From the NCBI GenBank assembly GCA_035477215.1, contig DATIKU010000052.1:1-62154 (forward strand): DNA of 62,154 bases. The letters are read 5' to 3'. The position numbers and the translations under genes are program-made. Every line of letters begins with the position of its first letter. Position 1 is the stretch's first letter. The notes below the pieces were generated by a model. The model did not search any database. It was not told the origin of the DNA and worked only from the letters and a program-made list of their open reading frames with translations. Origin of the DNA: Spirochaetota bacterium. Lineage in GTDB: Bacteria; Spirochaetota; UBA4802; UBA5368. Of this stretch, positions 35,435-43,980 are shown in pieces.

Positions 35435-36172
35435 TCACTCCCCCGCGAAGAGCGAGTCCAGATAGCGCCCGTACCCCTCAATGCCGCCCGAGCCCAGCGC
35501 CTCGACGACACCGGTGCCCACGATGAAACCGCCCGCAAGAGCCGCCGCCGCGCGCGCGTCGTCGGCGCTTCGTATGCCGAAGCCCAGCACCACCGGGACG
35601 GCGCTCGAGCGGCGCGCCTGCCGTATTTTCGAGCGCGTCGAGGAATCGAGGGTGAAGCCGCTTCCGGTTATGCCCCGGATCGAGACGAAATAGAGGAAGC
35701 CACGCGCCGCGCGCGCGATCTCGCGAATCTGCCCTGGGGTGTTCTCGGGCGTTGCGAAGTTGATGTAGTCGAGTCCCTGTGCGCCGAAGGCGTCGCGGAA
35801 GGGCGCGCTCTCGACGAAGGGGACGTCGGGCACAATGACGCCGTCGGCGCCCGCGCGCTTCGAGAGGTCCGCGAAGCGCGCGAGGCCCCTGTTATGGACC
35901 GGGTTCGCGTAGGTCATGAAGTAGATACGCTTCCCATCCGGCGCTTTCGCGCGGATATCCGAAACCGACCGCGCGAGGTCGTCCAGCCTGAAGCCGCGCT
36001 CCAGCACCGCCTCCGCGGCGCGGGCGATAACGGGCCCGTCGGCCACGGGATCGGAGAAGGGGACACCCACCTCGAGGAAATCGAATCGCTCCATGCCCAG
36101 AAGCGCGGCCGCTTTGAAGCGCTCCGCGTCGGGATAGTCGCCCATCAGGTATACGCCGTTATAGCCGTTCAT
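35435..36172 (-). CDS. trpA: Tryptophan synthase alpha chain
   Basis: TrpA splits indole-3-glycerol phosphate and channels indole to TrpB. The catalytic glutamate and aspartate are E34 ([13 protein letters not shown]) and D45 (PVADGP). Both are offset by exactly 15 from the Salmonella enzyme (E49, D60), so the N-terminus is about 15 residues shorter than usual, and total length is 245 versus 268. The phosphate-binding loop [12 protein letters not shown] and GFGIRSADD are intact. ATG overlaps the trpB stop (ATGA), and it is the last gene of the trp operon. Confidence 0.96.
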
Positions 36173-37350
36173 GCCTTTAACGCCTCCTCGATTATTCCCA
36201 CGTCCTTGTCGCCGCGACCCGAGAGATTGACGAGCACGGTCTTTCCGCGAAGTTTGCGGCGGTTCCTCATGACATAGCCCAGCGCGTGGCCGCTCTCGAG
36301 CGCCGGGAGTATTCCTTCGATGCGCGAGAGCGCCAGGCAGGCGTCGAGCGCGTCGCGGTCGGAGCATTCCGCGTAACGGACCGCGCCGCTGTCCTTGAAG
36401 AAGCTGTGCTCCGGGCCCACCCCGGCATAGTCCAGGCCCGCCGAGACGGAATGCACCGGGAGCACCTGCCCCTCGTCCGTCTGCAACAGATAGGTGCGGC
36501 TCCCCTGGAAAATTCCGGGGCGGCCCCTCCCGAGCGAGGCGCTGTGGTCGCCCGGCGCGTGCGAGCGCCCCCCCGCCTCCACGCCGACGAGCGTGCCGCC
36601 GGGCGATCCGAGAAATGCTGAAAATATCCCGGCGGCATTGCTCCCCCCGCCCACGCAGGCGACCACCATGTCCGGGTCGCGCCCCGTTATGCGGCGCATC
36701 TGTGAGCGGGCCTCCCCGCCTATCACCGACTGGAAATCACGCACAATCCGGGGAAAGGGCGCCGGGCCGATCACCGAACCGATGAGATAGTGGGTGCGCC
36801 GCGCGCTCGCCACCCAGTCGCGCATGGCCTCGCTCACGGCGTCCTTGAGCGTTCGCTGTCCCGATTCGACCGGCACCACCGAGGCGCCAAGGAGGCCCAT
36901 GCGGTGGACGTTCGGCGCCTGGCGCGCGACGTCCTCGGCCCCCATGTAGACGCAGCACTCCATGCCCAGAAGGGCCGCCGCCGTGGCCGTGGCCACGCCG
37001 TGCTGACCGGCGCCGGTCTCGGCGATGACGCGCCGCTTGCCCATAAATTGAGCCAGGAGTATCTGCCCCAGCGTGTTGTTGAGCTTGTGCGAGCCGGTGT
37101 GCACCAGGTCTTCGCGCTTGAGGTAGAGTTCCAGGCCAAGCTTCGCGGAGAGCCGCCGCGCATGGTAGACCGGCGTGGGCCTTCCCGCGTAGTCGGCGAG
37201 GAGCCGCCGGTGCTCGCGGCGAATGGCCGCGTCTTTCCGGAAATGCCGGTAGGCGGCCTCCAGTTCGTACAGCGCGTTCATCAGGCTTTCGGGGACGAAA
37301 CGACCGCCGTACTCGCCGAAGTAGCCGCGTTTATCGGGCATGTTTCTCAT
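36169..37350 (-). CDS. trpB: Tryptophan synthase beta chain
   Basis: TrpB condenses indole with serine using PLP. The 393-residue protein has the TrpB1 hallmarks: [13 protein letters not shown], the PLP lysine in [31 protein letters not shown], the phosphate-binding [13 protein letters not shown], and [15 protein letters not shown] 37350 is chosen for GAGGTG upstream. The gene overlaps trpF by 20 bp and trpA by 4 bp. It lacks the N-terminal extension of TrpB2, so it is the standard alpha-partnered form. Confidence 0.97.
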
Positions 37351-37963
37351 GATACACCTCACTCAGTGCGTCGAATAATTGCCGAATCTTTTCCTTCGAT
37401 TTGATGCCGGGCGCGTCCTCTATCCCCGACGACACGTCGATGCCGAAGGGTCGCGCCGCGGTGAAGAGCCGTTCGACGTTCGCCGCGTTTATACCGCCCG
37501 CGATGATGGTCTTTTTGACATGCATAAAGCCGCAAAGCGCCCCCCAGTCGAAGGACTTTCCCGTTCCGCCGCCGGAGAGTTCGTCGTAGCGGTCGAGAAG
37601 CAGGAGGTCGTCGTCCACGGGCGCCCGGACCGACGCTAAATCAGCCGCATCGCGCAGGCGGTGTGCGTCGATGATCCGGATACGCTCCCGCAGCTTTTCG
37701 GCCGTCGCGCGGTCGTACACCTGCGCGAAGTCAAGCCGGGCGCTTTCCGCCAAGCGCGCAATCCCGTCCGCGTCGGTGCCGGTGAAGACGCCCACGCGCA
37801 GAATGCCCGTGCCGTCGAGCACCCGGGCGAGCACGCCGGCGCGCTGTGCGCTCACGAACCGTGGCGATGCCGGATGAAACACAAAGCCCGCTGCCGACAC
37901 CGGAAACTCCGCCGCCGCGGCCAGGTCCTCCTCGCGCGTGAAGCCGCAGAGCTTAACAAACAC
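37331..37963 (-). CDS. trpF: Phosphoribosylanthranilate isomerase
   Basis: TrpF catalyses the Amadori rearrangement of PRA to CdRP. The product begins at GTG 37963 ([13 protein letters not shown]), behind GGGGAG, giving 210 residues, the standard length. The catalytic cysteine lies in KLCGFT, and later motifs include [22 protein letters not shown] and AGGINAANV, then [19 protein letters not shown]. Its start overlaps the trpC stop by 11 bp. Separate trpC and trpF genes are usual outside enterobacteria. Confidence 0.95.
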
Positions 37964-38723
37964 GGCGCATCTCCCCGAGGAGGACTTGGGGATCGGCCGC
38001 GCGCATGAGGGCCGTCCCCACCAGGAAGAGCCGCACGCCCGTATGCTCGCGTGCCCGGCGCACGTCATCGGCCGAATCGATTCCGCTGGCGCAGACGCGC
38101 GTGATGCCGTCGGGAACGGCGCGCAGCGTTGCGAAGGCGGCATCGCGCTCGATCGCGAGCGTTTCGAGGTTTCTGGTGTTTACCATTACGATTCGCGGCG
38201 AAAGGGCAAGCATGCTGTCGAGCTCGCGTTCATCATGCACCTCCACAAGCGGCGCAATGCCGATGTCGAGCGTGCGGCGGTAGAGCGCGGCGAGGTCGCG
38301 CCGCGAGAGCATGCGCGCGACCAGGAGCACGAGGTCGGCCCCGAGCGCCGCGGCCAGGTCGATCTGCTCCGGGAAGCGAACAAACTCCTTGCAGAGCACG
38401 GGAACTTTTACCGCGCGCGCGGCGGAAGCCAGATCGTCCCACGAGCCACGGAAATACGTGGCGTCGGTGAGGACGCTGATGGCGGCGGCCCCCGCTTTCG
38501 CGTAGCGCGACGCCCGTTCACCGGCCCCGGCATCGGAGATGCGTCCCGCCGAGGGCGAGGCCTTTTTTATTTCGGCGATGATGCCCGTCGCGCCCTCGAG
38601 CACGGCCGGGCCGTTTGCCGCGCGCGAACGCGGCGGCGCGGCTGCAAGGCGCGCGCTGATGTCCGGAAGCTCGCGGCGCTTCAGCGCGGGCATTTTTCCC
38701 AGGCTGAAGCGCTTAGTGCGCAT
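37953..38723 (-). CDS. trpC: Indole-3-glycerol phosphate synthase
   Basis: TrpC closes the indole ring from CdRP. The 256-residue protein has the IGPS core: IIAEIKKASPSAGRI with the catalytic lysine, VLTDATYFRGSWDDL, VPVLCKEFVRFPEQI, APLVEVHDEREL, and MVNTRNLETLAIERD. The C-terminus has VCASGIDSADDVRRA. ATG 38723 overlaps the trpD end by 11 bp. Note the FVRFPEQI variant of the usual FIIDPYQI motif. Confidence 0.95.
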   Translation of the reverse strand: MRTKRFSLGKMPALKRRELPDISARLAAAPPRSRAANGPAVLEGATGIIAEIKKASPSAGRISDAGAGERASRYAKAGAAAISVLTDATYFRGSWDDLASAARAVKVPVLCKEFVRFPEQIDLAAALGADLVLLVARMLSRRDLAALYRRTLDIGIAPLVEVHDERELDSMLALSPRIVMVNTRNLETLAIERDAAFATLRAVPDGITRVCASGIDSADDVRRAREHTGVRLFLVGTALMRAADPQVLLGEMRRVC

Positions 38724-39732
38724 GGCGCTCTTCCCTGAGTGCCGAGAGCGTGGAGAGCACGGCCCCGCCGTGGATTGCACCCAGGGCCGTCGTGTAATAC
38801 GACGGGATATCGCCCTCGCCGCGGTGGGCGAAGAGCGAGAGCGCGGCGTTGAGCGCGATGAGCTTGCCAAGGGGCGTTGGCGCGGACGAACCGATGGTTT
38901 CGATAAAACGGTCGGCGTTCTCCGCAGCCGTAAGGTTTTTGGGAAGCGTCGATGCTTCCTCGGATGTGATAAAGCGCTCCGGCTCGATGGTAAACGAGCG
39001 TACGCTTCGCCCGCTGACCACGCGCACCTCGGTGGGCGCCACGGGCGAGACCTCATCCATGCCGTCCGCCGCCGAGTAGACCACCGCAAAGTCGTAATCA
39101 AGCTGTGCGGCGACGCCCGCGTAGAGCGGGAGCAGGGACGGGTGAAACAGGCCGATCGCCTGCCGGCGCGGCGCGGCCGGGTTGGTGAGCGGCCCCAGGT
39201 AGTTGAAGATGGTGCGCACGCCAAGGGCCTTGCGCACCGCGCCGGCGAACCTCATGGCGGGATGATAATTCGGCGCGAAGAGGAAGACGAAACCGCGCTT
39301 TCGGAAATAGGCGGAGGCGTCGACGCCCGTAAGGCCTATCGGCACATCCAGCGCCTCCAGGAAATCGGCCGAGCCGCTTTTACTCGACACCGAGCGGTTG
39401 CCGTGTTTGGCTATGGGAACGCCGAGCGCGGCGAGCGTGAGCGCCACGGCGCTGGACACGTTGAACGAGCCCGAGTGGTCGCCCCCGGTGCCGCAGGTGT
39501 CGAAAAGCCCCCTGTCGCCGAGCTCGCAGGGCGCGGCGAATGCGCGCATGGAGCGCACCGCGCCCAGTATCTCCTCCGGCGTCTCGCGCCGCACTTTAAG
39601 CGCCACCACGGCCGCGGCGATCTCGATCTCCGAGACGGCCCCCTGGAATATGGCATTGAAAAGCCCCTCGCTCTCGAGGGCCGAGAGGGTGCCCCCCTCG
39701 GAAAGCCTTCGTATCTCATGTATCGCGCTCAT
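38713..39732 (-). CDS. trpD: Anthranilate phosphoribosyltransferase
   Basis: TrpD transfers phosphoribose from PRPP to anthranilate. The 339-residue protein has FDTCGTGGDHSGSFNVSSAV, KHGNRSVSSKSGSADFLEAL, FLFAPNYHPAMR and IFNYLGPLTNPA. It has no fused TrpG domain. ATG 39732 is selected over 39738 because AGGAGG lies six bases upstream of it. It overlaps trpG by 4 bp (ATGA) and trpC by 11 bp. Confidence 0.96.
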   Translation of the reverse strand: MSAIHEIRRLSEGGTLSALESEGLFNAIFQGAVSEIEIAAAVVALKVRRETPEEILGAVRSMRAFAAPCELGDRGLFDTCGTGGDHSGSFNVSSAVALTLAALGVPIAKHGNRSVSSKSGSADFLEALDVPIGLTGVDASAYFRKRGFVFLFAPNYHPAMRFAGAVRKALGVRTIFNYLGPLTNPAAPRRQAIGLFHPSLLPLYAGVAAQLDYDFAVVYSAADGMDEVSPVAPTEVRVVSGRSVRSFTIEPERFITSEEASTLPKNLTAAENADRFIETIGSSAPTPLGKLIALNAALSLFAHRGEGDIPSYYTTALGAIHGGAVLSTLSALREERHAH

Positions 39733-40292
39733 CCGCATCCTCCTGTAAAATTCCTGAGCATTGTCAGACCGTGTTCGGTCAGGTACGACTCGGGGTGAAA
39801 CTGCACGCCCCATGCGTTTCGTTCGCGGTGGCGCACCGCCATGATCTCGCCATCGGAGGCGCGCGCCATTACCTCCAAACACGCCGGAAGCGAGTCCTCT
39901 CGCGCGGCCAGGCTGTGGTAGCGCACCGCGTCGAACTCCTCCGGCACGCCGGAAAAGAGCTCGCCGCCGCGATGGCGCACGCGGTCCACCTTGCCGTGCA
40001 TCACTCGCATGGCGCGCACCACTTCTCCACCGAGAACAAGCACCATGGCCTGCATCCCCAGGCACACGCCCAGAAGCGGCGTGCCGTTACTCGTACGGAT
40101 GATGTCGAGCGTAATGCCGGAGTTCTCCGGTCCGGAAGGCCCCGGCGAAAGAATGATGCCGCGATAGCGGTGAAGATCGATCGACGAGAGCGGCGTGTCG
40201 TTGCGCACCACCTCGATCTCTTCGCCCAGCACGCGGAAGTACTCCACCAGGTTGTAGGTGAAGGAATCGTAGTTATCTACCATTAGCAACAC
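39729..40292 (-). CDS. trpG: Anthranilate synthase glutamine amidotransferase component
   Basis: TrpG supplies ammonia to TrpE from glutamine. The 187-residue class I amidotransferase has the nucleophile in LLGVCLGMQ, the oxyanion-associated LSPGPSGPE, and the His/Glu pair in VQFHPESYL. The start is GTG 40292, with GGAGG upstream; ATG 40283 would be too far from it. It overlaps trpE by 20 bp and trpD by 4 bp. It may also serve folate synthesis (PabA role), which cannot be excluded. Confidence 0.95.
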   Translation of the reverse strand: MLLMVDNYDSFTYNLVEYFRVLGEEIEVVRNDTPLSSIDLHRYRGIILSPGPSGPENSGITLDIIRTSNGTPLLGVCLGMQAMVLVLGGEVVRAMRVMHGKVDRVRHRGGELFSGVPEEFDAVRYHSLAAREDSLPACLEVMARASDGEIMAVRHRERNAWGVQFHPESYLTEHGLTMLRNFTGGCG

Positions 40293-41815: not shown

Positions 41816-41856
41816 AAAAAGGCCGCGGGATCGCTTGCGATTCCCACGGCCTTTTT
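41816..41856 (-). terminator. Second terminator-like hairpin in the trp leader
   Basis: On the minus strand, about 19 bp pair with one bulge (AAAAAGGCCGUGGG to CCCGCGGCCUUUUU, then AUCGC with GCGAU, AA loop), followed by a U-run. It lies between the attenuator and trpE, so RNA polymerase must pass two hairpins. Its 3' arm CCCGCGGCC is also perfectly complementary to GGCCGCGGG in the first hairpin. Confidence 0.8.
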
Positions 41857-41862
41857 GCCCGT

Positions 41863-41894
41863 AAAAAAGCCGCGGGTGGTTGCCCACCCGCGGC
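41863..41894 (-). terminator. trp attenuator terminator (3:4 hairpin)
   Basis: The RNA forms a perfect 11-bp stem (GCCGCGGGUGG with CCACCCGCGGC) closed by a GCAA tetraloop and followed by six U. The alternative 2:3 pairing uses GGGCAACC (41878-41885), at the heart of this hairpin, with GGUUGUCC (41929-41936) in the leader peptide region. This matches the mutually exclusive structure of classical trp attenuators. Confidence 0.9.
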
Positions 41895-41907
41895 CTGCAT
41901 TTTCAGA

Positions 41908-42015
41908 TTATGCCATAACCGTGCCGGAGGACAACCCCTTGGTCGTCCACCACCAGCACTGCCTCGCGATGTTCGTTCTCGTTTTCATTGCGCTTGTGTG
42001 CGTTCCGGTTCTCAT
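41908..42015 (-). CDS. trpL: trp operon leader peptide with three consecutive Trp codons
   Basis: A 35-codon frame runs from ATG 42015 to TAA 41908 and has three consecutive TGG codons at 41947-41955 (residues 21-23, preceded by RQC). Stalling there when charged tRNA-Trp is scarce would cover region 1 (41921-41959 forms the 1:2 hairpin GUGC...GCAC) and leave region 2 free to pair with region 3, preventing the terminator. There is no clear Shine-Dalgarno: the ATG lies only a few bases after the predicted transcription start, so translation may be near-leaderless, or may begin at the internal ATG 41988 (codon 10). Its function is regulatory; the peptide sequence outside WWW looks unconstrained. 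Confidence 0.88.
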   Translation of the reverse strand: MRTGTHTSAMKTRTNIARQCWWWTTKGLSSGTVMA

Positions 42016-42025
42016 TGACTGCGGG

Positions 42026-42055
42026 ATTATGGGGGATGTATCGTGTGGGTGTCAA
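42026..42055 (-). promoter_or_regulatory. trp operon promoter
   Basis: On the minus strand TTGACA (42055-42050), an 18-nt spacer and CATAAT (42031-42026) make a strong sigma-70 promoter about 10 bp ahead of the leader-peptide ATG. No TrpR-type operator dyad is obvious over it. Confidence 0.8.
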
Positions 42056-43831: not shown

Positions 43832-43850
43832 GCCGCGGACCGTTTCGACC

Positions 43851-43980
43851 TCACCCCCTCACCCCCTCACCCCCTCTCCCATTAAGCTCGGAAGAAAGGA
43901 GAGGGGGAGTTGACATGATGAGCTTAAGGTTTAAGAGCCCTCGCCCTTCGGGAGAGGGCGCGCCGGCGGCGGGGTGAGGG
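43851..43980. repeat. CACCCCCT-type intergenic repeat with hairpins
   Basis: Just after the acyltransferase stop are repeated TCACCCCC units (43851-43880). CCCCCTCTCC then pairs with GGAGAGGGGG near 43899-43909, and a second block has CCTCGCCCTTCGGGAGAGGGCG. This is the repeat style found with DUF559 islands elsewhere, though no DUF559 gene is here. Confidence 0.6.

Follow-up and report, generated by a model that had tools for sequence, protein, structure and literature searches.

The leader of the trp operon in the 62,154-nt stretch of Spirochaetota DNA analyzed here (the window) is probably, with a likelihood that we put at roughly 70%, a ribosome-mediated trp attenuator in which two successive terminators are joined by a ladder of alternative helices. 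The case for this reading is built from the parts of the leader, their conservation, the complementarity of the helices with its covariation, and folding preferences, all of which were computed here.

Architecture of the trp leader

The operon, in the order trpEGDCFBA, lies directly downstream of the leader (Table 1). The features expected of a trp attenuator were found: a trp operon leader behind a promoter, a conserved short open reading frame (ORF) with clustered Trp codons, and exclusive helices. In the window leader the 1:2, 2:3, and 3:4 helices are mutually exclusive and placed so that a stalled ribosome would mask segment 1. The 233-nt leader folds 6.5 standard deviations below dinucleotide shuffles. 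A preliminary description of this DNA had read the region as a classical ribosome-mediated trp attenuator, and its promoter (TTGACA-N18-CATAAT), its leader frame with three Trp codons (35 codons if ATG 42015 is the start), its 1:2 hairpin near those codons, its 8-bp 2:3 pairing, and its perfect 11-bp 3:4 terminator (T1) were all recovered from the minus strand. Operon context, Trp codons, alternative helices, and conservation uphold that reading; T2 and 4:5 had been overlooked, which alters the mechanism to be explained. The attenuator had been called complete at 41863, and that claim fails because a second terminator, T2, stands between T1 and trpE.

Table 1. Features of the window leader and operon, and loci of the palindrome found near trpE in relatives
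Feature	Position or locus	Strand	Details
trpE, first gene of the operon, 505 aa	40273..41790	-	Best model TIGR00564 trpE_most, 1.6e-128, below the model cut-off
trpG, trpD, trpC, trpF, trpB, trpA	35435..40292	-	Profile matches
Sigma-70-type promoter	42026..42055	-	TTGACA 42055-42050, 18-nt spacer, CATAAT 42031-42026; 11 of 12 consensus matches
trp leader ORF	41908..42015	-	MRTGTHTSAMKTRTNIARQCWWWTTKGLSSGTVMA; 35 codons from ATG 42015; TAA 41910-41908; alternative in-frame ATG 41988
Three Trp codons in succession, predicted ribosome stall site	41947..41955	-	Direct reading; within QCWWWTTKGLSS
1:2 hairpin, 8 bp	41929..41948	-	GGACGACC 41948-41941 with GGUUGUCC 41936-41929; folding
2:3 antiterminator helix	41878..41936	-	Core 41936-41929 with GGGCAACC 41885-41878; extension into arm 3 gives 15 bp
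T1 (3:4 terminator)	41863..41894	-	11-bp stem with GCAA loop 41894-41869, U6 41868-41863; -26.0 kcal/mol
4:5 hairpin, 14 bp	41843..41876	-	CCCGCGGCUUUUUU 41876-41863 with AAAAAGGCCGUGGG 41856-41843; -21.9 kcal/mol; predicted to sequester T2 arm 5
T2 (5:6 terminator)	41816..41851	-	GGCCGUGGGAAUCG-CAAG-CGAUCCCGCGGCC 41851-41821, then U5 41820-41816; -22.9 kcal/mol
GTTTCTAnnnnTAGAAAC at trpE promoters, within the class	L012-L015, L021-L026, L028-L031, L034-L036, L041, L042, L046-L049		
GTTTCTAnnnnTAGAAAC outside the class	e.g., L053, L055, L057, L063, L100, L104		

T2 begins 11 nt past T1 and is followed by AGGAG and then the trpE start codon. The 4:5 helix consists of the T1 3' arm and U-tract paired with an A-tract and the 5' arm of T2, and it reaches 14 bp because the T1 U-tract also pairs with the A-tract preceding T2. 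The gene on the far side of the leader appears to be divergent (ORF from 42254, plus strand), and T2 is therefore not needed for ending a convergent transcript. The gap between T1 and T2 is roughly 10 to 25 nt across leaders and offers no evident space for another sensing ORF.

The start of the leader ORF is ambiguous, with equal odds for ATG 42015 and the in-frame ATG 41988, and both lack a clear Shine-Dalgarno sequence. Only about 4 nt separate ATG 42015 from the expected start of transcription, and this codon is missing in the close relative L003. It is possible, judging from these positions, that the leader peptide is translated in near-leaderless fashion from ATG 42015.

In the mechanism that we infer, the ribosome on the leader peptide would sense Trp-tRNA. 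When tryptophan is present, the ribosome would reach the stop codon and cover segment 2, 3:4 would form, and the polymerase would stop at T1; a polymerase that escaped T1 would then meet T2. The stop codon lies inside segment 2 (TCCGACTGA) in the relatives L003 and L009 and a few codons further downstream in the window. When tryptophan is scarce, the ribosome would stall on the Trp codons and cover segment 1, 2:3 would form, and T1 would be blocked, while arm 4, now free, and its U-tract would pair with the 5' arm of T2 and the A-tract before it, disfavoring T2. A single stall event would thereby open both gates. Attenuation of T1 through the Trp codons is very likely; that T2 is slaved to the choice made at T1 through 4:5 appears somewhat more probable than the opposite.

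Leader peptides, tandem terminators, and TrpR among relatives

The window leader (L001) belongs to family f1 and to an assembly of 3.57 Mb. It was compared with a class sample of 46 genomes, all of one order, from which 38 trpE leaders were examined; most of the relatives are metagenome bins. That the host is a spirochaete, as had been presumed, agrees with the names of the relatives (Spirochaetia bacterium UBA5368, UBA5763, and UBA5550 and Spirochaetes bacterium Go_SlDig_bin_460) and with the placement of UBA5368 in Spirochaetota. A search of related trpE leaders for TGG runs, proposed in the preliminary description, yielded a short ORF encoding consecutive Trp residues (WW) in 27/38 leaders of the class, compared to 2.5% of dinucleotide shuffles. 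The number of Trp codons per run is three in the window and two to four in relatives. Trp leaders also precede trpE outside the class, as in MKEQKMINNTLSFRFWWWFWQ (L062) and MIDYSAVINYWWWFWE (L078). Rather than an isolated occurrence in a spirochaete, as first supposed, WWW leaders are the rule in the class and are also found in spirochaete families outside it.

Loss of the TGG run or of the pairings in close relatives, which would have counted against attenuation, was looked for and not seen: WWW, 2:3, T1, and T2 are all kept in L003 and L009 despite changes at other positions, and the peptide motif QCWWWxTKGLSS is conserved in L003 and L007/L009. L003 (MWBW01000069.1) is titled Firmicutes bacterium ADurb.Bin248; its trpE is 81% identical to that of the window and its leader is very similar, and it is probably a mislabelled or mixed bin. 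The genus mates G001-G004 offered no leader for comparison because no trpE was found in them; the leader DNA of the window was not found there either. G001, which is 95% complete, has a trpB with 58% identity to that of the window, and G002 has one with 88%. Judged by gene content, the genus may carry trp genes in only some of its members.

The tandem T1-T2 layout was found in 21 leaders from eight Spirochaetota families (f1, f4, f6, f3, and f7 in the class; f28, f10, and f8 outside it). Leader L033 (G034) shows another arrangement: about 325 nt upstream of trpE lie a leader encoding WRFFWWNTP, a hairpin, and an operator half-site, with seemingly about 200 nt of extra sequence before trpE. It is possible that an insertion uncoupled this attenuator from trpE.

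The Trp repressor (TrpR; Pfam PF01371) is absent from f1, the family of the window, and from genus g14 of f6, and most of the remaining genomes in the class possess it. The tandem-leader genomes outside the class G048, G079, G091, G085, and G070 are also without TrpR. Of the genomes with TrpR, 23 of 27 carry the palindrome GTTTCTAnnnnTAGAAAC upstream of trpE, as against none of the 11 genomes without TrpR (Fisher p = 1.1e-6), and the palindrome lies near trpR in 6/6 loci (L131-L136). Because it co-occurs with TrpR and adjoins trpR, this palindrome is probably the TrpR operator of Spirochaetota, and it appears to have been lost together with TrpR in f1. The lineages whose tandem attenuators are strongest lack both TrpR and its probable operator; with phylogeny ignored and some genomes incomplete, the tandem layout was found in 14 of 18 genomes without TrpR versus 6 of 20 genomes that have TrpR (p = 0.004).

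Predicted pairing between the two terminators

The main alternative is a classical single attenuator at T1 followed by T2 as an independent, leaky fail-safe that imposes a constant-factor reduction, with 4:5 as a by-product of terminator duplication. In most leaders the two terminators have arms of similar sequence, as duplication would predict, and part of the 4:5 signal could therefore reflect concerted evolution of a duplicated terminator. Many f7 relatives have only a single terminator, which suffices for them and also fits T2 as a backup.

The T1 3' arm can pair with the T2 5' arm in all 21 tandem leaders. The mean energy of native 4:5 was -17.9 kcal/mol, compared to -10.1 kcal/mol when T2 was swapped between clades, a swap that ignores phylogeny. 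In the f6 leader L017 the 4:5 energy is -24.9 kcal/mol. Compared with 152 other terminator-like hairpins of its own genome, native 4:5 was among the few best pairings in most leaders; a stricter subset of this control was also used because the pool, drawn from about 0.34 Mb of the same genome, partly consists of false terminators inside genes. In an alignment of the 4:5 core that the author had trimmed to the register of the predicted pairing, paired cells make up 92.4%, versus 37 to 63% for slid partners. Cells with double changes numbered 12, at five pairs, compared to 2.8 ± 1.8 in shuffles that ignore relatedness, and the covariation score was 0.242 versus 0.160 ± 0.023 (0/500 shuffles, with relatedness again ignored). 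Across relatives, the complementarity of the aligned 4:5 segments exceeds chance and is mostly well above controls; individually, L010, L012, L021, and L048 are no better than controls.

This excess over swapped and genomic controls, together with the double changes, argues against an independent backup terminator, as does the extension of 4:5 past the stems in several lineages (UGU/ACA, U-tract/A-tract). In L062, L072, and L078 the T1 U-tract forms the loop of 4:5, and adjoining UGU/ACA or UUGU/ACAA pairs lie outside both terminator stems. In f10/f28 such UGU/ACA pairs belong to the 4:5 helix, and stem duplication alone would not yield them. Furthermore, a strong constitutive T2 would hold the operon off even in starvation.

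In order to model a stalled ribosome, as the preliminary description had advised, the RNA of each of the 21 tandem leaders was masked up to a point 12 nt beyond the first codon of its Trp run, and the emerging RNA was folded. With segment 1 masked, a 2:3 helix of 7 to 16 bp formed in every one, and when the transcript ended at arm 5, the best fold was 2:3 with 4:5 in 17/21, including the window; L003, L010, L011, and L078 favored T1. Full-length transcripts with segment 1 masked mostly reverted to 3:4 with 5:6, and antitermination must therefore rest on folding kinetics, like that of the classical attenuator. Once 2:3 had formed, exchanging 4:5 for 5:6 cost energy in 12/21 leaders, with crude barriers of 2 to 14 kcal/mol. 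These barriers were computed with 2:3 retained; a barrier to the global minimum was discarded, the path to it having also unfolded 2:3. In a local comparison, 5:6 was not ahead of 4:5 in 8/21 leaders versus 1.3% of controls.

The window itself is less favorable to coupling. With 2:3 in place, 2:3 with 5:6 is about 2 kcal/mol better than 2:3 with 4:5 (crude barrier, 5 kcal/mol), and in the local comparison 5:6 is better by 5.6 kcal/mol; T2 may therefore form even under ribosome stall. T2 is also favored over 4:5 after 2:3 in L003, L078, and L079, a result in line with a backup terminator. T2 coupling was graded by leader on the basis of step energies, barriers, and the local comparison. In these models it appears to have a sound basis in most of f6 and in L011, L013, and L009; in the window, L003, L078, and L079, 4:5 is not convincing as a helix that would hold T2 off, and in the window itself the coupling is probably weak energetically. 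The independent backup terminator is an unlikely, though substantial, alternative.

A very unlikely alternative is that T2 terminates a stable leader-derived small RNA or serves as a processing or stability hairpin at the 5' end of trp mRNA. Tandem stable hairpins could protect a released leader RNA, and a trans-acting attenuator leader peptide is reported for Sinorhizobium (PMC7298713). This explanation leaves the 4:5 complementarity, and its tie to the choice between 2:3 and 3:4, unexplained.

The least probable alternative, another sensor (a T-box, an orphan riboswitch akin to the trpB motif, or a protein of the TRAP type), draws on weak RF04312 matches below the gathering score in three f6 relatives and is disfavored, as the conserved Trp-codon runs would be superfluous for such mechanisms and no Rfam family, with trp, his, T-box, and trpB-motif families included, reached its gathering score in a covariance search of the window. 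The RF04312 trpB motif, a riboswitch candidate of Firmicutes and Fusobacteria, consists, like the tandem leaders, of two hairpins, of which the second is a terminator (PMC11109978); the window gives no match to it. Subthreshold matches to SSRC10, His_leader, and the trpB motif were judged to be generic two-hairpin similarity. Elsewhere in the window, a purine-rich/pyrimidine-rich inverted repeat of GGGGGTGAGG units (43850-43923) gave spurious matches to Rfam microRNA families.

Relation to known attenuators

The E. coli trpL-type attenuator has the same short ORF with tandem Trp codons, the same 1:2, 2:3, and 3:4 helices, and a U-tract terminator before the trp operon. The window differs in the addition of T2 and 4:5 before trpE, in its three Trp codons, and in its Spirochaetota host. 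The enterobacterial his leader has six segments, A to F, in which A:B, C:D, and E:F alternate with B:C and D:E and only E:F terminates. The window leader shares this ladder topology, but its C:D-like helix (3:4) has its own U-tract, so that the C:D-like and E:F-like helices are both terminators. The run of His codons typical of the his leader was not found in the leader peptides, which have Trp codons instead.

Two attenuation steps in one leader, as here, are also found in the Salmonella mgtCBR leader, but there two ORFs sense two signals, ATP and proline, independently (PMC3641672), whereas here one ORF precedes two terminators. The same source states that a single attenuator per biosynthetic operon is normal. 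Tandem terminators are shared with the rimP-leader of Gammaproteobacteria, which has a second upstream terminator with a potential antiterminator (PMC2965389), but its sequence is unrelated, and the available part of that source describes no amino-acid-sensing leader peptide for it. To the knowledge of the authors of that 2010 survey, leader-peptide attenuation had not been shown beyond Proteobacteria and Actinobacteria before its Firmicutes cases. Chains of helices in attenuation are attributed to Lopatovskaya et al. 2010 in PMC4833913.

Sensing in the window leader is of the classical kind. No description of a spirochaete trp leader, of linked tandem terminators, or of one stall site governing two terminators was found in open-licence literature, and for this reason the two-terminator ladder is taken as a new variation, apparently undescribed as a design.

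These results point to leader-peptide attenuation as common in Spirochaetota and doubled in many of its members. We propose tentatively, at slightly less than even odds, that the window represents a widespread Spirochaetota class of attenuators in which a five-helix ladder lets one stall switch both intrinsic terminators, for a tighter shut-off than a single terminator would give, and which takes the place of TrpR where that repressor has been lost. Should 4:5 act in this way, the position of one ribosome would relay a decision down a cascade of hairpins. The pattern of TrpR presence and absence also constitutes a natural experiment on the trade between a DNA-binding repressor and control by RNA.
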